DNA of 22,489 nucleotides from a virus, in IMG/VR virus record IMGVR_UViG_3300040787_000021, positions 1 through 22,489 of that record; one strand, given 5' to 3'. The first letter of the stretch is position 1. The number at the start of each line of letters is the position of its first letter. The translations under genes and the position numbers were made by a program. Under the pieces are notes generated by a model, which ran no database searches, was not told the origin of the DNA, and worked only from the letters and a program-made list of their open reading frames with translations. Below are positions 2,197-21,545 of the stretch, piece by piece.

Positions 2197-4158
2197 TTGA
2201 TTCCCCGTTACGCTGGTGTAGGTATTGATTGTTCGGAATGGAATATTGAGGTTATCCCTAGTGGTGGAAACTTGACCACTGGCGGGACTATCTATTTTTC
2301 CTTCCAATTAATGAATCGCGCTGGACTAAATCGTGCGTTTATATCCAGCGCGGTAACTTATATCCAAGGAGATCGAATTGAAATCACAATTCCAGAAAGC
2401 ACAATTCGTGAAGCACATGATATACACTACTTTATCTTAAGTGCTTCGACAAGCAGTAATCCTGAAAATTTTATACAAATTGCTCGCTTGCCTGGGTATC
2501 AATACGGTGAAGGGATTGAACCACAATCGATAAAACTGCAACTTCCTGCAACGATTCAATTAACCGAAGACGAGCATTTATTACTTGCACCAAACGTATT
2601 AAATGCTGCAACTTTGCCATCGGGGGCAGATTTAATTGATGGCATGGTGCGGTGGGTTATTCAAGAATCAAGGTTTGTGGAATATCAAGCGCAATTCGAT
2701 ATTTGGGAATTTTTAGGAAGCCCAAATACTTTTATTTTGGATACCACTATTGATGGGAGCGATCGCAATCTTAGTGAAATCGATCCAACCGATATAATTC
2801 CCCATCCGATATATCCACCAGCGCCAAACACCAAAGTTTTACCAGAGTGGGAAAGTAAATATTTTCTCTATAATAATTCCGATAACCCGCTACCTGCGGG
2901 GACAGAATTTGGGATTGAGCTTTCCTATAACAACAAACGCAGCTCTGACTTATTAAACGGATTATTTCTGATAAAATTTGATGGGTTTGTAGATGGAAAC
3001 GGAAACCTACGCACTACCGACAGCGAAGGAAGAGATTTCAACAATGTTGGTGGCTTTATTCCTTGGGAACCAAAAATCGAAACGCCTTTTATCACTGATG
3101 ACGAATTACAGCCGGGAGAATCAATATCGATATCAGTAAAACCTTTCTTCTCAACTGCCGAATTAAACAATCAGGTGCCTGATGGTGCAGTGATTGGTAT
3201 TCTTCCGGTGATTCGCACCCAAAGCGGCGGCTATAATCCAATTGCGGAGTTGATTGATGGTGACGTTGTTTTTGCTAAAGGGGATTATTATCGAGTTTTA
3301 CCCACTTCAGGCTTAAGCTTCACTATTGGCAAAGGTATGGCCTTAGTAGGGAGCTATTCTTTTCCGGTAAAACCATCTCGCACAATATCCGGATTGCGAG
3401 AAAACACTGCTAACCAGCAGGTAATTATTAACGGCAATGGTGCAGTATATTTAGAATCTCCGAACTATCAGCCGACTAGTAGCGAAGCGTTGCGAGCGCT
3501 GGTTGGTACGGTAAGCGGAGAATCTGTAGCAACCGAGTGGAGCGATTATTTAGAAGTAACTAATGGCGGCATTTCGGTTAGTGCAATTATCTCAAATATA
3601 ATTAGAGAAGATTATCCCGACGTAATTAAAGGTGCTGCTGCTCAAGTAAATGCCCCAACGATTAATGTTTATTTACAGCGTCTCTCTGATGGTGCAATTC
3701 GTAAATTTAGCTCTATCTCGCTTTTACCACAGAACGGATTTAGCTATACTATCGGCGATTGGAATGACGGTATTGATAGTACCCTTCCTGTTGAAATCGA
3801 GGAAAATTTCTCGTTATTCGCACCGGGAGAAGTAACACTTGCTGAAGATAGCGGCATTTTAGCAACCGATAGCTACCGCGTTGCTGTTAGCTACGGCTAT
3901 GAAGGGACAGAAATAACCTCAATTTCTCACGCTTCTCCACCTTGTATTAAGGAGTGGTATGGCGCTTTTCAACCGCCTTCTTTGGTAGCAGGAGAAATTA
4001 CTATATTTGAATCCGAGCAACCGCCGGTAATGGTAGTAACTCAAACTGGTAATCCAGGTGAATATAAAATAGATATTGGATTTTTCGCATCTGGTATTAT
4101 TCCCCAAACTTGGGATACTGCCAACTGGGATAACGTGAATTGGGATGGGCTTAATTAA
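2197..4158 (+). CDS. large beta-rich phage surface or tail protein, unknown family
   Basis: A 653-residue protein whose family I do not recognise. The sequence is dominated by alternating hydrophobic and polar residues with many Gly, Pro, Ser, Thr and Asn, as in beta-sandwich tail, fibre or adhesin-like proteins. It has no signal peptide, no transmembrane segment and almost no cysteine. The N-terminus contains SGGNLTTGGTIYFSFQLMNR, the kind of Gly-rich strand pairing found in domains of tail proteins. The C-terminus ends in a five-residue repeat with a W-D core (TWDTA, NWDNV, NWDGL; bases 4108-4155). It starts with TTG behind a good ribosome binding site and opens the plus-strand structural operon; a HIP1 octamer is inside at 2759-2766. 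Position next to a fibre-like gene suggests a virion surface component, possibly receptor-contacting. This is inference from composition and context. Confidence 0.6.
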   Translation: MIPRYAGVGIDCSEWNIEVIPSGGNLTTGGTIYFSFQLMNRAGLNRAFISSAVTYIQGDRIEITIPESTIREAHDIHYFILSASTSSNPENFIQIARLPGYQYGEGIEPQSIKLQLPATIQLTEDEHLLLAPNVLNAATLPSGADLIDGMVRWVIQESRFVEYQAQFDIWEFLGSPNTFILDTTIDGSDRNLSEIDPTDIIPHPIYPPAPNTKVLPEWESKYFLYNNSDNPLPAGTEFGIELSYNNKRSSDLLNGLFLIKFDGFVDGNGNLRTTDSEGRDFNNVGGFIPWEPKIETPFITDDELQPGESISISVKPFFSTAELNNQVPDGAVIGILPVIRTQSGGYNPIAELIDGDVVFAKGDYYRVLPTSGLSFTIGKGMALVGSYSFPVKPSRTISGLRENTANQQVIINGNGAVYLESPNYQPTSSEALRALVGTVSGESVATEWSDYLEVTNGGISVSAIISNIIREDYPDVIKGAAAQVNAPTINVYLQRLSDGAIRKFSSISLLPQNGFSYTIGDWNDGIDSTLPVEIEENFSLFAPGEVTLAEDSGILATDSYRVAVSYGYEGTEITSISHASPPCIKEWYGAFQPPSLVAGEITIFESEQPPVMVVTQTGNPGEYKIDIGFFASGIIPQTWDTANWDNVNWDGLN

Positions 4159-4389
4159 TGGAATTTTTATCTGAGCAAGAATTTAGGTGCTGTAAACTCG
4201 CAGCTTTAGGTAAAACCAATTGTCAAATAGCATCTCTCTTTGTATTTAGCTCCAGGTACTGTGCAACATTATCTTTATTTAGCTTACAAAAAATTAGGTA
4301 TTAACCGTCGTCAACGTCTGCCGCATTTGTTTTTCAATAAAGATAATTGGTATCAGTTGACAGGAATATTTTATCAAAACTTAAAATAG
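4158..4389 (+). pseudogene. LuxR-type helix-turn-helix gene with a +1 frameshift
   Basis: The ATG overlaps the stop codon of the preceding gene (TAATG). The first frame reads MEFLSEQEFRCCKLAALGKT and then NCQIAS, then runs to TAA at 4302-4304 (48 residues in total). If one base is skipped in the TC-rich run at 4233-4239, the other frame continues SLYLAPGTVQHYLYLAYKKL, GINRRQRL and on to TAG at 4387-4389. Joined, the product (about 76 residues) is a classical LuxR/GerE DNA-binding domain: LSEQE start, GKTNCQIAS helix, the conserved Gly-Thr-Val recognition helix and a KKLGI end. LuxR domains bind operator DNA as dimers. The single-base break could be true gene decay, a sequencing or assembly error, or programmed frameshifting; decay or error is the simpler reading. 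It sits in the structural operon, four bases before the next gene. Confidence 0.65.
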
Positions 4390-4393
4390 TAAA

Positions 4394-5005
4394 ATGGCAC
4401 CACAAGTAGGATATTCAATCTTATCAATATCAGCCATCAAGGCAATTGGAGCAGAAGATAGAGTTAATGGGTATTGTCGTATCACTAGGGGTAACTTTAA
4501 CTCTTGGTATATGTTCGTGGAATCTTCTACGGCAATTCCCGACGAAATAAACGTGCTTCTTCCTAACGATAATCCAACAACAGGTAGATGGCACAAATCA
4601 AACGAAAATCCCTCTTTACCTGCAATTTTGGTTTGTGAGAATCAATGCAATTTAGATGGTAGTGGTAAAGCTTTGAAGTTTTATGCACCCTACGAAGGGG
4701 AGATAATAGTTAAGCCGAGTTTTGATATTGCCATCGGCGACTATTGGGAACAAGAATTACGATCGGGCAATGAAACTAGAGACAAGAGCGTTGAAGTTCA
4801 AGTTTGGAATCAAGAGCCAAATTTCAATATGGATGGTAGAAAATTTGTAGAAAACTTACCTCGCACGGGTGGAAAAGTAAGCATAAAAATGGATTCTGAT
4901 TACCGCTGGCTATCAATATTCGCTTGTGAAGATGGCGGCAGTAGTCGCGATGGTGTTTGCTTTATCATCAATCAAAATTTGATTACTTTAATTGATTTTA
5001 ATTAA
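4394..5005 (+). CDS. tail-fibre-like protein
   Basis: A 203-residue protein. Residues about 10-68 (SISAIKAIGAEDRVNGYCRI, then a beta-rich stretch ending NPTTGRWHK) resemble a short module seen in phage fibre and tail proteins in which a series of strands ends in a G-R-W motif. The rest is beta-rich and polar, with an acidic mid-section and four cysteines, and ends in a run of hydrophobic strands (VCFIINQNLITLIDF). There is no membrane segment or enzyme motif. The ATG follows the broken LuxR gene by four bases, and its stop abuts the ATG of the ferritin-like gene with no gap, so these two are certainly in one transcript. A role in virion surface or host contact is the best guess; the exact family is unknown to me. 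Confidence 0.5.
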   Translation: MAPQVGYSILSISAIKAIGAEDRVNGYCRITRGNFNSWYMFVESSTAIPDEINVLLPNDNPTTGRWHKSNENPSLPAILVCENQCNLDGSGKALKFYAPYEGEIIVKPSFDIAIGDYWEQELRSGNETRDKSVEVQVWNQEPNFNMDGRKFVENLPRTGGKVSIKMDSDYRWLSIFACEDGGSSRDGVCFIINQNLITLIDFN

Positions 5006-5638
5006 ATGATTTATTATTTAAGTGCTTGGATTTTTAGTAAGAATCCCAATTATTTATCAATCCTCAAGAAATCTGAACTAGGGGTTTACTATTTTTGTCG
5101 TAAAGTTGCGATTGAATGCGATAAAAACGGCTTTAATACCTTAGCGTTGCAGTTAAGAATTCAAGCTGAATCTGAGTACAACCACGCCCAAGCTTTTTCT
5201 AAATTAATGGGGGGTAAATTAACTGAGTCTTACAAAAGTTTAGAAAGAAGGGGGAACAGAACAATTGAGTGGAGCAAAATTGACTGGGATAGTAGTGAAG
5301 AATATATTGCCACCAACTTATCCCAAAACGCGATCGCAAAGTTGTTTTTTAAAGGTAAAAGTGCTGACAGCTATAGCTTATTTGATAAATTAGCCTTCAT
5401 GCAGGTACTAGAAGAGCATCAATACAAATTCTACAAGGCTTTGTCGTTATTTGTATGTCCGGAAATAGCTAAAATTTTACAATCTATTATCTCAGACGAA
5501 AAAACACACTCAAGCTCCTTGTTAGACCAGCTGTCTTTAGTCGTCCCAAAAAATCATATTCATAGATACTTACTTAAATGGCAATATAGAAGCTTCATAA
5601 CGTTATTAATGCTGCCATGTTTGATAAAAAAACTGTAG
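5006..5638 (+). CDS. ferritin-like diiron-carboxylate protein
   Basis: A 210-residue, mostly helical protein with the four-helix ligand pattern of the ferritin-like/rubrerythrin superfamily. Glu24 lies in the first helix (KKSELGVYYF), Glu57 and His60 form ExxH in the second (AESEYNHAQAF), Glu136/Glu137 lie in the third (VLEEHQYKFYKAL), and Glu165 with His168 form the second ExxH in the fourth (SDEKTHSSSLL). That is the full set of carboxylate and histidine ligands expected for a two-iron site that reacts with oxygen or peroxide. The C-terminus (about 187-210) is more hydrophobic and basic. The gene starts at the base after the preceding stop and its end overlaps the next gene by 22 bases. A HIP1 site lies at 5330-5337. 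A role in oxidative defence or iron storage is possible. A modified hydroxylase/oxidase acting on a neighbouring product, or a structural use of the fold, cannot be excluded. Confidence 0.65.
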   Translation: MIYYLSAWIFSKNPNYLSILKKSELGVYYFCRKVAIECDKNGFNTLALQLRIQAESEYNHAQAFSKLMGGKLTESYKSLERRGNRTIEWSKIDWDSSEEYIATNLSQNAIAKLFFKGKSADSYSLFDKLAFMQVLEEHQYKFYKALSLFVCPEIAKILQSIISDEKTHSSSLLDQLSLVVPKNHIHRYLLKWQYRSFITLLMLPCLIKKL

Positions 5639-7587
5639 ATGAATTCCAAAAAATATTTGGAAAAATATCTATTATAAAATTTGATTTTGATTGCGATAAA
5701 GACGACTTTATCTACAGCAGGATTAATAACAGCAAAGTAAGAATTAAATGCCTTGCTAGAGTTAAGATAGGCGATAATTGCTTAATTTTCGAGGAAAGCA
5801 ATTTTTATTATTTGTTGAACATTAGCGACCATTCAACATCTTTAAATTATCAAAGAAATATCGAATTTAATAAACAGTCGTTGAATAAAAATAATTTATT
5901 TCTACCTTTTAAAATTCTATACACAAAGTTTAATGCTGACAATGCCAGAGTTTTTATTGGTGGACATTCAAAAACCCCAACCTTTTTATTCGCAACAGAC
6001 AATTTTAATCCAGAAATTAATTATCTTGCAAGCGGAAATATAGCAAATAAAGGTAAAAATAATTTTTTAAGTTTTTCTAGCCTACCATTAGAATCATCTG
6101 ACTTATATTTAACATCAAGAAGAAAGCAGATTTATCAAAACAAACTCATTTCTAATTTTGCTTTAAATTTTTATTGGCTAGGATATGATTTCTTTTTTAC
6201 GTATTATACAATCGACGTTTATACGCTTATAGCACCAAACTTTGACGAATCAAGTAAATTATTGTATCTCATAGACAAAGACGGAAATCAAGAAAATATT
6301 CCATTAATTGCGGACGAAATTTTTGATGAAAATGAATCCCCAAGATTTGACAGAGGAAACTTAGTTTACAACAAATCAACAACTTTTTTTGACAGACATA
6401 TTAAATTTGAATTTGAATATTCAGGTGTAGAATTTTATTACGAAGAAAGATTGGCTCGTCGTTCAGAATCTGAAGAAACGACGACTTACAACAATGCTAA
6501 TAATTTTACGAGAAGTACTAGAATTAATGAACTTTCTGCGCTTAGAAGCGTTGAATTCTTGCTACCTTTTTTCTGTGGCGAGGATTTTATTTTGTATTCA
6601 AAATATGAAGATGCGGGAAATATTGAGCATCAAGCGTCTTATTCTTCAGATTCTGACTTGATATCTGCAACGGTTTTTTATAATGATGATCAATTAAGAA
6701 CTTCATCTTTTACTGACCCATCCTCTATTGGCAGCTTTGTTATTAGGGGAGCGAATGACATCATATTTAGAGATGGACAGCAAATTGAAGCAGACAATTT
6801 TCGGACAGACCTAAATTATTATGAGCTTATAAAACCATATTATTATGATAAAAATGAAAAGACGACTCGTGAATTAGATTCTAATTTTTCCGGATGTATG
6901 GAAGTTGATATTTCTATCGATATCGAGAAGCTTCCTCAAGTGAATTCAGTTTATTTCGGAAACAAAAAAGATAATGATGGCAAATACTATACTTCTGATT
7001 TATCTACTAGCTTACCCGAATCGACAATAGGAGTTGACATAGTTTATTACAAAAAAATTAATGGTCAATTCTACGAGTTCAAAGGTTCAATAATTGGAGA
7101 ACAACGAATTACGCAGTTAGACGACACGGTTGTTGTAAACGATATAGAGTTCAACAGATATTATTGGCAGATAGAAATCCAGTTTGAATTAATCACTCAA
7201 CTGGTTTACTTCCACAGAGATAATTACTTAATAATAAATCCTCACTCAATTAATGGATTTTGCTTGTTTTTGAATTGGGCTAATAATCGTTCCGGATATA
7301 TCAGGATAAGCCACAACAACTATTACGCATATCATAGGTACTTAGATTATTTTGAAGTTTTTGCTCATCAAAACAATCTTTCTTCCAAAGGAAATAGAAT
7401 ATATGTTTCCCATGTGGATATAAATTCAATCAAGAGTAAGAATGGCATTGGTTTTGTCTATGTTTTTGAAATTATTGAAGACAAAATAATTTTAAAAGAA
7501 GTTTTAGTTGACAAGATTTATAAATTAAAAATTAGTGACAACGATAATTTCAATGATTATTCAATTAGTTATCACCCAAGAACTTAG
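5617..7587 (+). CDS. large AT-rich protein of unknown function, probably virion-associated
   Basis: A 656-residue protein with no recognisable family. It is unusually rich in Asn, Asp, Tyr, Phe, Ile and Ser, with predicted long runs of beta strands and few helices, no signal peptide, no membrane segment and few cysteines. Its codon use is markedly more AT-rich than the neighbouring 2197-4158 gene. The ATG lies inside the 3' end of the ferritin-like gene, so translation is probably coupled. It is the last gene of the plus-strand operon and its 3' end overlaps the convergent methyltransferase gene by 23 bases, with no clear hairpin terminator between them. Length, composition and position after a fibre-like gene fit a tail, spike or other surface protein. 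I cannot support more than that. Confidence 0.55.
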   Translation: MFDKKTVDEFQKIFGKISIIKFDFDCDKDDFIYSRINNSKVRIKCLARVKIGDNCLIFEESNFYYLLNISDHSTSLNYQRNIEFNKQSLNKNNLFLPFKILYTKFNADNARVFIGGHSKTPTFLFATDNFNPEINYLASGNIANKGKNNFLSFSSLPLESSDLYLTSRRKQIYQNKLISNFALNFYWLGYDFFFTYYTIDVYTLIAPNFDESSKLLYLIDKDGNQENIPLIADEIFDENESPRFDRGNLVYNKSTTFFDRHIKFEFEYSGVEFYYEERLARRSESEETTTYNNANNFTRSTRINELSALRSVEFLLPFFCGEDFILYSKYEDAGNIEHQASYSSDSDLISATVFYNDDQLRTSSFTDPSSIGSFVIRGANDIIFRDGQQIEADNFRTDLNYYELIKPYYYDKNEKTTRELDSNFSGCMEVDISIDIEKLPQVNSVYFGNKKDNDGKYYTSDLSTSLPESTIGVDIVYYKKINGQFYEFKGSIIGEQRITQLDDTVVVNDIEFNRYYWQIEIQFELITQLVYFHRDNYLIINPHSINGFCLFLNWANNRSGYIRISHNNYYAYHRYLDYFEVFAHQNNLSSKGNRIYVSHVDINSIKSKNGIGFVYVFEIIEDKIILKEVLVDKIYKLKISDNDNFNDYSISYHPRT

Positions 7588-8110
7588 CTAAAGCCCAAAC
7601 ATGATAAGGAAAATTACTTTGATTCTTCAAGCTGTGTTCTTGAGGCTTATATTCCTTCCATCCACTTAAATTATCAATAACACACTCCCGATTGCCCCAA
7701 CTCCCTACTTTAATATTCTGCAACTCAAAACCACATTCTTTCAAGAAAAACTTTAACCCCTCAGCGCTCCATCTAGTACAGTCAAACAGCATTGGGTGAT
7801 ACTTTACCAAAAAAGGTACAGTAATCAAAAAATGCCCTCCAGGATTAAGCATTGATATTACATTTTTAGTAGCAGCATAAGGAAATCGTAGATGTTCCCA
7901 AACTTGCTCAGCAATTATCAAGTCAAACTTTTCAGGTAATCTACTAGTACAAATATCAAATGCTGGATAAACAACAGATAAATATTCCTCAAATCCGTAG
8001 CTACTCCATCCGTTGCCTGATATTTCTAATACTCGTTTTGGTTGTGGTTCGATACTAGAAACCAACTTATTAGTTTCTCGATTCATTACCACTCTCGACC
8101 ACTTAACCAT
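7565..8110 (-). CDS. class I SAM-dependent methyltransferase
   Basis: A 181-residue protein from the ATG at 8110; a TTG two codons earlier (8116) is possible but less likely. Residues 27-36 (VLEISGNGWS) are a variant of the SAM-binding motif I, DLIIAEQVWEHL (63-74) is the motif IV/post-IV region of the Methyltransf_11 type, and MLNPGGHFLITVPF (87-100) is the standard strand-4/5 signature. The distal part contains CTRWSAEGLKFFLKECGF and GSWGNRECV, which I recognise from a cyanobacterial subgroup of these enzymes often found among glycan genes. The substrate is not evident; a sugar, lipid or protein on the virion or cell surface is plausible, while DNA methylation is unlikely because no target-recognition or NPPY/DPPY motif is present. 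The start overlaps the preceding small gene by eight bases, so it is the last gene of the minus-strand series. Confidence 0.8.
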   Translation of the reverse strand: MVKWSRVVMNRETNKLVSSIEPQPKRVLEISGNGWSSYGFEEYLSVVYPAFDICTSRLPEKFDLIIAEQVWEHLRFPYAATKNVISMLNPGGHFLITVPFLVKYHPMLFDCTRWSAEGLKFFLKECGFELQNIKVGSWGNRECVIDNLSGWKEYKPQEHSLKNQSNFPYHVWALAKFLGDN

Positions 8111-8273
8111 AGCCAATATTGCGCTGCTTTACGATGCTGGTTTTTTTGTCTTGAGTCGGAAACTTAACCGTTTTTTTATAGGTTTTCACCTCAACGAAAT
8201 TATCCTTAATAGTAAACTGGGGAATCAGTTTCTTCCACTCATCAACAATCTTCTTTTGCGTATATCTGCTCAT
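8103..8273 (-). CDS. small basic hypothetical protein (56 residues)
   Basis: An open frame from ATG at 8273 to TAA at 8103 encodes 56 residues beginning MSRYTQKKIVDEWKKLIP and ending KQRNIGYG. It is Lys-rich (about a quarter of residues) and hydrophilic, with no membrane segment or known motif. It fills the otherwise empty gap between the hub-like gene and the methyltransferase, overlaps the methyltransferase ATG by eight bases, and is in the same orientation, all of which argue for a real gene. The ribosome binding site is weak. Function unknown; a small basic partner or DNA/RNA-binding peptide is possible but unsupported. Confidence 0.5.
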   Translation of the reverse strand: MSRYTQKKIVDEWKKLIPQFTIKDNFVEVKTYKKTVKFPTQDKKTSIVKQRNIGYG

Positions 8274-8333: not shown

Positions 8334-11003
8334 TTAAGGATTCCTCCGATGTCTTCCAACTAACGGCAATATTTGCCCCAAATTAACTCTCCAAATCAAT
8401 AAAGCGCTACCCTTTAATGGCTCTTGCTCTCCCGGTTTTGGTATTTTATGCTTGGTGTAACTAAGTGGCGGTAAAACGTATCTACCTAAACTCAAAGAAG
8501 TTACCGCTGTGATTCTCCTATCACCATTCACTACACCTTGAATTTCTAAGTTGTGAGCCACCGACAATACCACGCGCTGTCTATATTCCCCATTACAAAT
8601 ATAATTAAATCTATCCCCCTCTTTAATTCCCAAGTTACCGGGAATTTGCAAACTCTCAGTTAAGCCATTCCGCCAATTTTCAATAGCTAATTTACACCTT
8701 GCAGCCGTTAATGCTTCTTGCAAAGTTTCAGCCACTGGGAAACTTTCACTACCACCAATTAGATTTTGATAACTGTATCCAGGAGTTTGTATTAAATATC
8801 GATATTGCGCTTCTTCTGGCTTTTCAGCTTTATCCTTGACATCTTCCTCTTCTTTCTTGAACCGATTTGGGCGACGTTTAGCAACGGTTGGCTCTCCTTC
8901 GGTTTCGGTTGTTGAAGTTTCTTGTAAAGCCTCCGTCATCCCCTCTCCTTGAGCCTTATATTTAATTGAATAGGTATGTACTTTTGCTGGGGTGATTTCT
9001 TCTCCACGCAAATACACAACATTTCCATTTTCTGTAGTAATGGATTGTTCGTAAACGGCTTCTTCAATATTTGTAGTAGTTTCAAATAAAGATTCTTCCC
9101 CCACTACCAAATCTGGCATTCGCTTATCTTCTGCGCTCAATCCTTCATTTTCAGGATTGTCAGTACTTGCAAAGCCAGCAGATTCTGTACGCTCTCGCAC
9201 CGAATAGTATGGCGGAGCAAAATCCGGGTTATACACCGGAGAGAGAAATGCTTTACCAAATCTGTCACATTTTTTCACCCAATCAACTGCATTCTCACTA
9301 CTATATTCTTCAAACTTCTGTAAATACCTTGAAGTGCGTTTATAGATGGGAAGCTGAAAAAACCTATATAAATGCGCTTCCGGATTGCCATCTTCTAAAG
9401 TTTCTGGAATCTCTACCGATTCTTTGCGATATCTTACCGTGTTAAATCCAGATTCGATTTCGTATAATAGATACCCGGTTTGTTTATCGTAAGTAAACTC
9501 TGTGGTTGTTTGTTTGATTAGCTTCCACTGTTGTCGAGGATTCCCTAATATCCGCTTTCTCGAATCATCGTAAATTTCTCCGGCGGTAAAAACAAACCCA
9601 AATATTTCGGTGATTATCTTAACTTCTGCTTCATCTTCAAGGTGTACGAATTGTCGGGATTTTGTAACACCTCCCAAATCAAAACACATTGACATAACTT
9701 GAATTGAGCTAGTGCCTGCCGGAAATTCATTCGCTTTTACGTCACCATCAATTCTTACCCGTCGCTTTGGATCTTTCCTTACATACCTCGGTGTTGATTG
9801 CCCTTGTGTTTTCTCCTCATCCTTATCTTTGGGTTGCGAAAACTCCCCCGATAATTCTACGTTGGGATATTCAAAGGATAAGTTAGTTGGTAATTCGTTT
9901 CTGATAGTCGGAATTGGTGGTGGTGTTGGGGATGATGGGAAAGTCGCTAAATTTGGTGATGGTGGATTGTAATTAGCAATTGATAGCGATCGCCTTTTAG
10001 AAGAAATAGCGATCGCATCGTAACTGGTTGAGATTTCCCCTAAAATTTCCGTATCTCTGTAAAACCAAGCTTTTGTAGAGTTAATTCTAACTACTTCTAC
10101 TGCACCTGGATTGCTCCACCTCACAAAAGAGTTAGCAACCCGCAATCTCTCTTGTAGTAAAGAAATTGGATCTGCTGTCGCGTCGCGGGGTGTATCGCGA
10201 TCGATGGGTACGGGTTTTAAAACCGCTCCCGTATAAGGGATGCCAGCCTTACGCAGCAACTTAATTACCGTAGTCTCTCGTTTGTTGTTACTATTGTTTC
10301 GTATCCCAATCGCACAATCTGGATCTGGTTGGTTATCTAAAATCAAATTATTATTGCCGTCATCACGAAGAAAGACTGGCTCATCGATGTAATTTTCCCA
10401 CTTACCGCCGAAGTTTATTTTCACCGTACACCGCATATCTGGGTATATCGCTCGCGGTAATTCGGTAATATCTAAATTTTCAATTCGTAGGGGTAATCCG
10501 TAAATATTAATTTCCAGCCCAGGAGATAAAACCTGCTGAATAATCGATTTTGGTAAAGCTATTTCAAATTGTGCAGTTGCTGATGGGTGCTGCTCAAAAC
10601 TTCGATTTAATTGGATAGTACCTTCAAGAGGAAGATTTTTAAATGATATTGGATGCGGTTCCCGTAGTAGTGGAGGGCTTACGGGGATGGTTGGTGGTGG
10701 TGTTGATACTTGGATGCTTCGTGGTAAGTTTTCAGCAAATATTTGTAGCTGCTGCGAGTATGGATTCCACAGGTATTCCCCATTTTGTGGAGATTCGGGG
10801 TTAATTGCGGGAGTGTAAGTAATTCCGTTAGCGGAAACCGAGGTGACTTCTTCTGCTTCGACAGTTATCGGCTGGCTAAAATCTTCGACTACTGTTTGTT
10901 GACTTTCCGCTACTTCAATATTAATAGGCGAATAGTTGCCACTAAAAGCTTGGATTTGAGCGGTGTAATCACCTTTGTTTTCGGTATTAGAAATTATTAA
11001 CAT
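8334..11003 (-). CDS. large tail hub or baseplate-like protein
   Basis: An 889-residue protein. Residues about 118-345 look like the beta-rich N-terminal part of a phage tail hub (for example QFEIALPKS, GLEINIYGLPLRIENLDITE, VIKLLRKAGIPYTG, then LLQERLRVANSFVRWSNPG), in keeping with gp27/late-control-D-like or Tal-like proteins. Pro-rich linkers lie at about 101-116 and 346-367, a charged linker follows near residue 730, and the C-terminal 120 residues contain a conserved-looking barrel segment (LQIPGNLGIKEGDRFNYICN). There are no long hydrophobic helices, so it is not a tape-measure protein. Two HIP1 octamers are inside. The gene overlaps the end of the zinc-ribbon gene by seven bases. The hub role is inferred from domain appearance, size and position; I could not match it to a named family. 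Confidence 0.5.
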   Translation of the reverse strand: MLIISNTENKGDYTAQIQAFSGNYSPINIEVAESQQTVVEDFSQPITVEAEEVTSVSANGITYTPAINPESPQNGEYLWNPYSQQLQIFAENLPRSIQVSTPPPTIPVSPPLLREPHPISFKNLPLEGTIQLNRSFEQHPSATAQFEIALPKSIIQQVLSPGLEINIYGLPLRIENLDITELPRAIYPDMRCTVKINFGGKWENYIDEPVFLRDDGNNNLILDNQPDPDCAIGIRNNSNNKRETTVIKLLRKAGIPYTGAVLKPVPIDRDTPRDATADPISLLQERLRVANSFVRWSNPGAVEVVRINSTKAWFYRDTEILGEISTSYDAIAISSKRRSLSIANYNPPSPNLATFPSSPTPPPIPTIRNELPTNLSFEYPNVELSGEFSQPKDKDEEKTQGQSTPRYVRKDPKRRVRIDGDVKANEFPAGTSSIQVMSMCFDLGGVTKSRQFVHLEDEAEVKIITEIFGFVFTAGEIYDDSRKRILGNPRQQWKLIKQTTTEFTYDKQTGYLLYEIESGFNTVRYRKESVEIPETLEDGNPEAHLYRFFQLPIYKRTSRYLQKFEEYSSENAVDWVKKCDRFGKAFLSPVYNPDFAPPYYSVRERTESAGFASTDNPENEGLSAEDKRMPDLVVGEESLFETTTNIEEAVYEQSITTENGNVVYLRGEEITPAKVHTYSIKYKAQGEGMTEALQETSTTETEGEPTVAKRRPNRFKKEEEDVKDKAEKPEEAQYRYLIQTPGYSYQNLIGGSESFPVAETLQEALTAARCKLAIENWRNGLTESLQIPGNLGIKEGDRFNYICNGEYRQRVVLSVAHNLEIQGVVNGDRRITAVTSLSLGRYVLPPLSYTKHKIPKPGEQEPLKGSALLIWRVNLGQILPLVGRHRRNP
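9986..10016. repeat. pair of HIP1 palindromes
   Basis: Two perfect GCGATCGC octamers at 9986-9993 and 10009-10016, 15 bases apart. Five more are at 1182-1189, 2759-2766, 5330-5337, 17821-17828 and 20867-20874. HIP1 is highly over-represented in many cyanobacterial genomes, so its density marks the likely host group. Confidence 0.9.
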
Positions 11004-12049
11004 CGCTTAAATCGAACTCTCTTTGACTTAAAATTTAACATCAAGTTTTTCTCCGATGTCTCAATTACCGGATAATCAGAAGATGTTACGTTGGCCATCT
11101 TGATACCTATTAATTTACGCTTCCTTTTATAACCGAATTGCCCTCGACTTTCAAGAAACTTCCTTCGTCTTACAGTTACGAGAGCAAAAGACAAAGATTT
11201 TTTAATGTGGAACATTTCTCGCAATTCTGAGATGTTTTCACCACATCGTCTCTTGTAAGTAATTATCCAGCAGGTACGAATTAGAGTTTCTACTTTGTGG
11301 TCTTCAACTTCCTGGCAGTTATTTTTATAGTATTTTTTTGGCTTAGTTAAATATAAATATTTCTCAACAAGTTTCCCTGCTGCTTCAGGATAAGGATTAG
11401 GAGTTGGGGGATATTTTAAATAGTAATAAGGACATTCTCCGCGACAATTTTTAGCACTATTTGGATTAGTCAACCATTTGTGAGCTAGCTCTATCGTTCC
11501 TCCACAATCGCATTTACAAGTCCAAGTTGGTTGATTCCGCTTATCTTTTTTACCTGTTAATTTAATTGCGGTTAAGTTGCCAAACTTCCTACCACTAATG
11601 TCAATCGGACGACGTTTGTTGTCCACTAATCCCAATTTTCTTCTGCATCCACAAGAGGTTTGCTTGCCAAGACAGTCAAAGTCAGCTCTAGGCTTTTTAA
11701 TTATGTTCCCGCAATCGCATTGAAGAATCCATAATCGACGATACCTATTACCTACAAATATCACCTCACCCTTGCCTAGAACAGTCAAGAATCCAAGCCT
11801 TTGACCCGTACAGTCTGGTTTTTCAAAAGGATGTTTTCGCTCGACATTGAACTTTTGACAACCACAAGAAGGTTTTTTGTATTTTGGATGGTCAAAATTA
11901 CTTCTTTTGCGTTTAATTATCTTTCCACAAACACATTGCAACCGCCATAAAGTTTGATAAGTTCCATTCTTTCTCGTCTTTTTAATACTTCCTAAAACAG
12001 TTAAATATCCAAATTTCTGACCAGTGCAATCTGGTTTAATGTAAGGCAT
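10997..12049 (-). CDS. protein with three zinc-ribbon-like repeats (AP2/HNH-associated type)
   Basis: A 350-residue protein. Three copies of a module begin with a C/S-TG-Q/R-K/R-x-G-x-LTV-like strand pair (residues 8-19, 80-91, 151-162) and then carry paired cysteines: CVCG at 39-42 with CGC at 62-64; CDCG at 111-114 with CGC at 133-135; CKCDCG at 178-183 with CRGEC at 202-206. The CxC...CxC spacing suggests one zinc ion per module. This type of module is common at the N-terminus of phage AP2-domain or HNH homing-endonuclease proteins and probably binds nucleic acid, but here it stands in triplicate and no HNH or AP2 motif follows. The C-terminal 140 residues are strongly basic and unlike anything I know. 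It overlaps the genes on both sides (14 and 7 bases). It may be a decayed or domesticated mobile gene, or a phage DNA-binding protein. Confidence 0.6.
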   Translation of the reverse strand: MPYIKPDCTGQKFGYLTVLGSIKKTRKNGTYQTLWRLQCVCGKIIKRKRSNFDHPKYKKPSCGCQKFNVERKHPFEKPDCTGQRLGFLTVLGKGEVIFVGNRYRRLWILQCDCGNIIKKPRADFDCLGKQTSCGCRRKLGLVDNKRRPIDISGRKFGNLTAIKLTGKKDKRNQPTWTCKCDCGGTIELAHKWLTNPNSAKNCRGECPYYYLKYPPTPNPYPEAAGKLVEKYLYLTKPKKYYKNNCQEVEDHKVETLIRTCWIITYKRRCGENISELREMFHIKKSLSFALVTVRRRKFLESRGQFGYKRKRKLIGIKMANVTSSDYPVIETSEKNLMLNFKSKRVRFKRC

Positions 12050-20322: not shown

Positions 20323-20568
20323 ATGAAAAAAGCAGAGTTTCCTAAGTGCGAAACCTTACGGCTGAAAAGAATCGCGAGCGGTTTATCTCAAAGTCAATTA
20401 ACTTGTTCTATGGCTGAAAAAGGGATTGGCAATTTTAGCAGCAACTACATCTCAAGATTTGAATGTGGTTCTCAAAAGCCCTGGAAGAAAGCAAGAGTTG
20501 CCTTGGCTCAATATTTTGAATGCAGCGAAAACGAGCTTTTCCCTGAGCATTACCGTTGGGTGCGCTAA
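20323..20568 (+). CDS. XRE-family helix-turn-helix regulator
   Basis: A protein of 81 residues from the ATG at 20323; a TTG four codons upstream is weaker. Most of it is a single Cro/CI-type HTH domain: LRLKRIASGLSQSQLTCSMA, then NFSSNYISRFECGSQKPW and a last helix with LAQYFECSENELFP. The Y-I-S-x-F/W-E-x-G recognition-helix pattern is clear. No other domain is present, so it is a bare DNA-binding module, probably a dimer. It runs against the minus-strand head genes: its promoter region (20201-20322) is shared with the protease gene and its 3' end overlaps the 326-residue head gene by four bases. It may switch the head operon, or be the lysogeny or late regulator. No terminator is visible at the convergent end. 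Confidence 0.8.
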   Translation: MKKAEFPKCETLRLKRIASGLSQSQLTCSMAEKGIGNFSSNYISRFECGSQKPWKKARVALAQYFECSENELFPEHYRWVR

Positions 20569-21545
20569 TCTTTTTGGAAGTAAGTCCTGAACCCATCTAA
20601 TTCTGTCACGAGGGAATCTCTCAATGCGGATGCATAAGCCGGGTCTGCTCCTGAATTCCCGTAATTACCCAGCGAACCCCCAGATGGTGTATATTTTTCT
20701 ATGGAACTATCATAAAAATAATTGTCAAACTCTTCACGAGACAGCCTATCTCCAAGCGCTCGACGCACCTTATTAACCTCAACTAAACCAGTACCTTCAG
20801 GGTCTAGTTTTTCAAAAGCTTCGTCAAATTCTTTACTGAATTCTTCTTTTGATTTTATCGGAGGCCGCGATCGCATTTCATAAGCTTCCCCTAATTCATC
20901 TTTTGTGCCCTGCATAGGGCTAGTATAGTGTTCAATAGTGGCTTCTACACTTTCTCTCGGCAAATTTTTGGTGTATAGCTTAGACACATCGTCGATTTCA
21001 ACATCTTGTGTACCACCTTCATTGCCTGAAACCTTTATCGTTTTACCGTTATTTTTATAAGTTCCAGCAGGAACTTCAAAAAAATCTTTATCTCTATCAT
21101 TAAAAGCATCTAATTCACTTTTAACCCGATTGGCTTTCGCAAGATCCCGCCAACTCGGTTCTTGTTTAGCTTCTGGTTTTTGATTTTTTGTATTCTGCGG
21201 CTTAACTGCTTTCTTTGGAGTAGATTTTTTCTTTGCAGTAGTTTTCGGCTTAGCTTTCTTGCCGTTTTTCTGGTTTTTCAAAAACTCACCAAAATTCTTC
21301 GCTTCACCTTTTACAGCTTTTTTACAAGCATAGTTTTTACTAATACAGCTACCACCGCAAGGGTAGCCTTTCTTACAGCTTCTCTGCTTTCCCCCTTTAG
21401 CAAACTCCAATATTTGAATTGGCAAATTCGACCAAACAAAAAAATTTGCGCTTTCACTGAACTCTAGAGATGATATTTCTTCCTCAAACTCTACTTCAGC
21501 TTCAGTATATTCACTAAGATTGGAGAACAGTGTTGTAATAGTCAT
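20565..21545 (-). CDS. head-region protein with a cyanobacterial Cys motif and a winged-helix-like C-terminus
   Basis: A 326-residue protein with three parts. Residues 57-74 form a Cys motif, C-x5-C-x3-C-x6-C (SCKKGYPCGGSCISKNYAC), which I recognise from head-morphogenesis or related proteins of cyanobacterial phages. A Lys/Pro/Ala-rich linker at about 85-130 is probably disordered and may bind DNA. The C-terminal 100 residues (KEEFSKEFDEAFEKLDPEGT ... VNKVRRALGDRLSREEFDNY ... DSLVTELDGFRTYFQK) resemble a conserved cyanobacterial wing-helix-like domain. It is not an EF-hand (see rejected items). The start overlaps the end of the preceding gene by four bases. The position before the protease fits a minor head protein, but no SPP1 gp7 or Mu F domain is visible, so the role stays open. 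Confidence 0.5.
   Translation of the reverse strand: MTITTLFSNLSEYTEAEVEFEEEISSLEFSESANFFVWSNLPIQILEFAKGGKQRSCKKGYPCGGSCISKNYACKKAVKGEAKNFGEFLKNQKNGKKAKPKTTAKKKSTPKKAVKPQNTKNQKPEAKQEPSWRDLAKANRVKSELDAFNDRDKDFFEVPAGTYKNNGKTIKVSGNEGGTQDVEIDDVSKLYTKNLPRESVEATIEHYTSPMQGTKDELGEAYEMRSRPPIKSKEEFSKEFDEAFEKLDPEGTGLVEVNKVRRALGDRLSREEFDNYFYDSSIEKYTPSGGSLGNYGNSGADPAYASALRDSLVTELDGFRTYFQKD

Follow-up and report, generated by a model that had tools for sequence, protein, structure and literature searches.

A ferritin-like diiron-type protein encoded next to the tail adhesin gene of a likely cyanophage

Ferritin-like proteins in phages

Phage-encoded ferritin-like proteins are already known, and the usual interpretation is that they store iron or act against stress. 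The names listed in BFVD include a rubrerythrin-domain protein from Acidovorax phage ACP17, a siphovirus-assembly ferritin, a marine-phage non-haem ferritin and a Dps-like protein. The ACP17 protein (A0A218M313; 31.4 bits against PF02915) resembles the one described here in that a tailed phage codes for a ferritin-like diiron domain. Its gene, however, is located among genes of DNA metabolism (single-stranded DNA-binding protein, DexA and RNase HI) and not beside tail genes. A link between iron and phage tails is also on record, because T4 gp37 exemplifies tail fibres with HxH iron sites (reviewed in PMC11705849). In a literature search with partial coverage, no paper was found that links phage ferritin-like proteins to tail fibres.

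Here we analyze a ferritin-like protein of 210 residues encoded on a viral DNA stretch of 22,489 nucleotides (IMG/VR record IMGVR_UViG_3300040787_000021; hereafter the window, meaning the whole stretch). In its predicted fold, it resembles the oxygenase branch of the superfamily most closely, and three diverged genomes of the cyanophage type tie its gene to that of an adhesin.

The virus, its host and the tail operon

The window represents a phage, as genes for head, head protease, major capsid and tail proteins are present. The 653-aa tail-module protein shows 47% identity to Nodularia phages and has more distant kin in Aphanizomenon phage CL131 and Planktothrix phage PaV-LD. The HIP1 motif (GCGATCGC) is over-represented in cyanobacterial genomes. 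It occurs at 7 sites in the window, where dinucleotide shuffles predict 0.15, and one of these sites (5330-5337) is inside the ferritin-like gene. Due to the tail-gene homologues in cyanophages and the HIP1 enrichment, a cyanobacterial host is likely. The features of the region are as follows.

2197 to 4158, + strand: tail-module protein of 653 aa that corresponds to the first half of Nodularia phage gp041 (phrog_31840, 1.3e-167)
4394 to 5005, + strand: protein of 203 aa with no assigned family, directly upstream of the ferritin-like gene with zero gap
5006 to 5638, + strand: ferritin-like diiron-carboxylate protein of 210 aa (Pfam, ligands, AF2 model, MiaE match with Z 17.1)
5617 to 7587, + strand: terminal fibre/adhesin-like protein of 656 aa (alignment A4, N-terminal profile)
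7565 to 8116, - strand: SAM-dependent methyltransferase of 183 aa, converging on the adhesin gene (Pfam Methyltransf_23, 1.2e-8)
8334 to 11003, - strand: tail/baseplate-type protein, oriented towards the + strand operon, also in the relatives (phrog_15468, 6.7e-162)

The ferritin-like ORF has an ATG start and its boundaries are exact. The stop codon of the 203-aa gene (TAA, 5003-5005) is immediately followed by this ATG at 5006, and the adhesin gene begins at 5617, so that it overlaps the last 22 bases of the ferritin-like gene. The initial annotation had described a shared transcript with zero-gap and overlapping junctions. Both kinds of junction are confirmed, but no more than three genes are connected by them (4394-5005, 5006-5638 and 5617-7587), and the 235 bases upstream of this run are occupied by a broken LuxR-type frame.

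This upstream stretch (4158-4393, + strand) has a helix-turn-helix of the LuxR/GerE type which is split over two frames, LSEQEFRCCKLAALGKTNCQIASLF and PGTVQHYLYLAYKKLGINRRQRLPHLFF, and it overlaps the stop codon of the 653-aa tail gene (TAATG). When read through as one protein, it scores 25.7 bits, above the Pfam GerE cut-off. The gene is either broken or frameshifted. A GerE-type gene is also found near the fibre gene of a related genome (L011, 12894-13445, - strand).

An endolysin-like gene (672-1508, - strand) combines a peptidoglycan-binding repeat (below threshold) with a C39-like peptidase domain. The 350-aa protein encoded at 10997-12049 (- strand) contains three repeats of a zinc-ribbon-like unit, G-x-x-F/L-G-x-L-T-V/A ... 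C-x-CG. Such units are often found with HNH endonucleases; in this protein, no Pfam match and no HNH domain were found. Two head-region genes, one in the window (20565-21545, - strand) and one at L007 (12209-13186, - strand; same virus), have a Cys-rich N-terminal part in common (RSCxKGYPCGxSCISKxYxCKK). Their C-terminal parts differ, one being ADP-ribosyltransferase-like (PF03496, 27.2 bits) and the other having a sub-threshold EF-hand match.

Family assignment and relatives

Rubrerythrin (Pfam PF02915) is the only family for which the 210-aa protein passes the cut-off (23.8 versus 22.8 bits), with a best stretch of 41 residues that covers part of the profile. For the Ferritin profile (PF00210), the score is 17.1 bits against a cut-off of 24.5; the relatives described below have no match to it, and it retrieves nothing from 33 related records. 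Searched at E<=10, the four phages with a family member contain nothing that matches the MiaE profile (PF06175), and MiaE_2 (PF13794) is matched below its cut-off in one relative only. The Pfam and NCBIfam scans of the ferritin-like proteins returned no ADO family, and PADLOC returned no defence match for the 210-aa protein.

Because the Pfam matches are weak, relatives were sought. With the 210-aa protein as query, none was found among 50,697 phage and 72,556 plasmid records (E<=10), nor in GTDB genomes scanned by peptide patterns of the protein. A direct search of viral contigs retrieved only 3300040801_005449, which codes for an identical ferritin-like protein. This contig is from the same virus as the window (99.98-100% identical) and is therefore left out of all counts. 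The 653-aa tail protein was then aligned with the corresponding proteins of the Nodularia, Aphanizomenon and Planktothrix phages (alignment A1), and a scan of viral contigs with this alignment yielded 32 loci. A search with the 210-aa protein through the whole records of these loci uncovered three diverged relatives. Two are full-length and occur in the same place (L014, 242 aa; L017, 237 aa). The third, from a 130-kb contig (L051, phage G009), is shorter (160 aa) and may be truncated. The L017 relative retrieved nothing from the phage and plasmid records (E<=1), and no new family members came from further scans of viral sequences, for which A2, A3, A6 and the L051 protein were used. The family as described here thus has four members, all encoded on viral contigs from metagenomes, none of which belongs to a cultured phage.

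One reading of the Pfam result is that of a stress protein related to rubrerythrin or ferritin. A diiron peroxidase or ferroxidase would lower peroxide and free Fe(II), and its gene would be an auxiliary metabolic gene placed in a tail operon. Beyond the Rubrerythrin match, this fits a photosynthetic host, which is supported by HIP1 and by the phage kinship, and the ferritin-like and Dps-like phage proteins named in BFVD. Peroxide protection had been among the functions offered by the initial annotation. It is weakened by the relatives, which score 21.2, 13.7 and 21.1 bits against PF02915, all below the 22.8-bit cut-off. Cysteines occur only at positions 31, 38, 151 and 205 of the 210-aa protein, and a CxxC or rubredoxin-like Cys4 motif is absent from it. 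Overall, we consider a stress protein unlikely, but an alternative to be taken seriously.

Metal ligands

The window protein and its three relatives were aligned (alignment A5; ca. 30% identity), and 20 of the 144 ungapped columns are invariant. E24, E57, H60, E136, E165 and H168 are identical in all four sequences and are the sole invariant Glu and His residues of the alignment. Their arrangement, E / ExxH / E / ExxH, is that of diiron-carboxylate proteins. The chance that all six of these named columns are invariant is 3.5e-6 (hypergeometric, treating all columns alike). The residues had been named from the sequence alone before any relative was known, with only the choice between Glu136 and Glu137 left open. 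Both are in the third helix, but E136 is invariant and E137 is not. Loss of the ligands in homologs would have spoken against a diiron protein; instead, all six are kept in each of the four sequences.

Two irons would be bound by these six ligands within the bundle. Conservation of the ligands also bears on the possibility that the protein is a helper without catalytic activity, which would serve the tail fibre as chaperone or assembly factor and retain the metal-binding fold for stability. Genes adjoining those of phage adhesins often code for chaperones, and here a variable partner gene is found directly downstream. However, the six ligands are kept at ca. 30% identity while most other positions have changed, which would not be needed for a non-metal scaffold, so that an idle helper is improbable.

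Coupling to a variable tail adhesin

Eight genomes were compared for the region downstream of the 653-aa gene: the window, the Nodularia phages (L003 and L015, counted once), L011, L012, L013, L014, L016 and L017. All of them have the 653-aa protein (45-50% identity), and in all of them the + strand run that follows it ends in an adhesin with a shared N-terminus, the L014 contig ending within the adhesin. Except for L014 at its contig end, this run converges on the conserved - strand tail protein. The latter, encoded at 8334-11003 in the window, shows 40-48% identity in L003, L011-L013 and L015-L017.

About 90 N-terminal residues of the adhesin are common to seven related genomes, and the remainder is highly variable. 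A profile of this N-terminal part, built with L013 and L017, detects L003, L011, L012, L015 and L016 (1.5e-8 to 9e-6), while L014 is linked by alignment. Receptor-binding adhesins that are anchored in the virion typically combine a constant N-terminal part with a changeable rest, and we infer that the 656-aa protein is one of them.

The ferritin-like gene directly precedes the adhesin gene in three of the eight genomes (window, L014 and L017). The overlap between the two genes amounts to 22 bases in the window and to 10 bases in each of the other two genomes. The remaining five genomes carry different genes at this position: the Nodularia phages have a gene for a LamG lectin, and L011, L012, L013 and L016 have others. 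We conclude that, in three phages which have diverged from one another, the ferritin-like gene is translationally coupled to that of a terminal tail adhesin with variable sequence. Thus, the association with a fibre-type gene, which had been proposed for the window only, is supported for a likely cyanophage and recurs in the same place in other genomes. The 203-aa gene upstream (4394-5005) is the counterpart, by position, of a gene of 130-134 aa in L014 and L017; as to homology with the 130-aa upstream gene of these genomes, only a profile match with E 0.32 was obtained.

The relative in phage G009 (L051) is encoded on the opposite strand and outside the fibre operon, which counts against a tail-linked oxygenase. 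A 995-aa gene of G009 aligns loosely with the fibre genes, but the fibre profile does not find it and kinship is not claimed. Next to the G009 ferritin-like gene is a 573-aa gene (L051, 12470-14191, - strand) with a sulfotransferase domain and a family-2 glycosyltransferase, and an R2K ATP-grasp gene is also nearby in this contig. This glycosyltransferase-sulfotransferase and the SAM-dependent methyltransferase of the window are only hints at surface or glycan modification.

The genomic arrangement bears on two of the alternatives. An enzyme of general metabolism, as assumed for a stress protein, need not be coupled to the adhesin in three phages. The other alternative is that of an iron-bearing virion component (ferrojan-horse type), in which the protein would be part of the tail tip and present iron to the uptake receptors of the host. 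The coupling to the terminal adhesin gene in a variable receptor-binding region would agree with this, as would tail-fibre iron known from other phages (T4 gp37 HxH sites, PMC11705849). However, the known tail sites are of the HxH type, and the + strand tail proteins of the window operon do not have this motif. Moreover, five of the eight related genomes lack the ferritin-like gene, and iron in a buried diiron centre would not be exposed. For the suggestion that iron is loaded into the virion, we find no positive evidence, and we regard it as very improbable.

Predicted structure

AF2 fails on the single sequence (pLDDT 40.2). With alignment A5, a thin alignment of four family members, it predicts a helical bundle with pLDDT 76.6 and pTM 0.75. 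Helices 16-40, 44-67, 125-146 and 152-179 carry the ligands (local pLDDT about 82-94), each of the six being located in one of these helices. This agrees with the four ligand-bearing helices expected from the initial annotation. The model has additional helices at the N-terminus (2-11) and the C-terminus (182-209), and the stretch between helices B and C (73-107) is poorly defined. The C-terminal helix was considered as a membrane anchor, but its hydrophobicity is too low for a clear transmembrane segment.

Foldseek retrieved many ferritin-like chains together with TenA/haem-oxygenase-like bundles, with weak E-values (best 0.055) and low TM-scores. The candidates were realigned with VIA-align. 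All of the top 50 matches that were listed belong to the ferritin superfamily (Z 12.3-17.1). The best among them is the tRNA hydroxylase MiaE (Z 17.1, 2.4-2.5 A over 168 residues, model residues 1-209). It is followed by 5ux1 (Z 16.6) and 8fhc (Z 16.5), both deposited as having aldehyde-deformylating activity. Rubrerythrin (Z 13.8), cyanobacterial ADO (13.5) and bacterioferritin (12-13) rank lower. According to a warning of the tool, helical bundles can reach Z ~13-14 without kinship, so that only the MiaE-type group is clearly above this level. When PDB sequences were searched with a profile of the family, almost only ferritin-like or designed diiron chains were found, each match being weak.

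Fold prediction, structure search and invariant ligands support a ferritin-like diiron protein, as had been proposed. The 210-aa protein is very probably a diiron-type member of the ferritin superfamily. Its predicted shape is MiaE-like; membership in the MiaE family is not claimed, because PF06175 has no match and MiaE_2 is below threshold.

With rubrerythrin and bacterioferritin ~3 Z units below MiaE, the structure comparison further argues against a stress protein. It raises yet another alternative, namely that a MiaE-type tRNA hydroxylase acts on host tRNA and is encoded in the tail operon without a role in the tail. MiaE being the best structural match would fit, but there is no MiaE profile match, a search of loci from the three phages with gene coupling yielded no tRNA gene, and the threefold adhesin linkage argues for a tail role. 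Among the readings considered, a tRNA hydroxylase is the least probable.

Proposed function

Our tentative main reading, to which we give a probability of about 40%, is that the 210-aa protein is a six-helix diiron protein of the MiaE/ADO type, most likely a small O2-dependent oxidase or hydroxylase. Of the three functions proposed in the initial annotation, oxidation of a partner protein fits best, because the predicted fold is nearest to MiaE and to proteins with aldehyde-deformylating activity; the partner itself is speculative. In such an enzyme, a diferrous site in the bundle would activate O2. Since neither a reductase nor a rubredoxin domain is part of the protein, the diiron site would probably be recharged by a host electron donor such as ferredoxin. 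Because the ferritin-like protein is co-produced with the adhesin, a tail component may be the substrate, and we speculate that this could be the adhesin itself, a tail protein in its neighbourhood or a glycan associated with the tail. The protein would then be a modifying enzyme of tail assembly and not an iron store.

It is a bolder and rather unlikely proposal that there is a family of phage diiron oxygenases dedicated to the receptor-binding module, each of which oxidatively modifies the co-made adhesin or an attached glycan. If true, maturation of the host-recognition device would include an enzymatic, O2-dependent step, and this in an oxygen-producing host. Should the adhesin be modified, the protein would count as a diiron enzyme that acts in the maturation of phage tails.

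Comparison with known systems

The predicted model has the same architecture as the tRNA-(ms2io6A)-hydroxylase MiaE (PDB 2itb, 6zmb, 8afj), including the N- and C-terminal helices. The aligned part comprises 168 of the 210 residues (2.4-2.5 A), and a non-haem diiron site is expected of this fold. The phage protein differs from MiaE in several respects: identity is 14%, PF06175 is not matched, the gene is part of a tail operon, and there is a poorly defined insert of ~57 residues between helices B and C. With ADO and the aldehyde-deformylating deposits (4rc5, 5ux1, 8fhc), it has the diiron oxygenase fold in common at 12-14% identity. Rubrerythrin (PF02915) has the same bundle and provides a Pfam match barely above the cut-off for the window protein, which matches part of the profile and is without a rubredoxin domain. 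With the T4 gp37-type tail fibres, the link between iron and tail is shared; there, iron is bound at HxH sites of the fibre, whereas the window codes for a separate, enzyme-like bundle.
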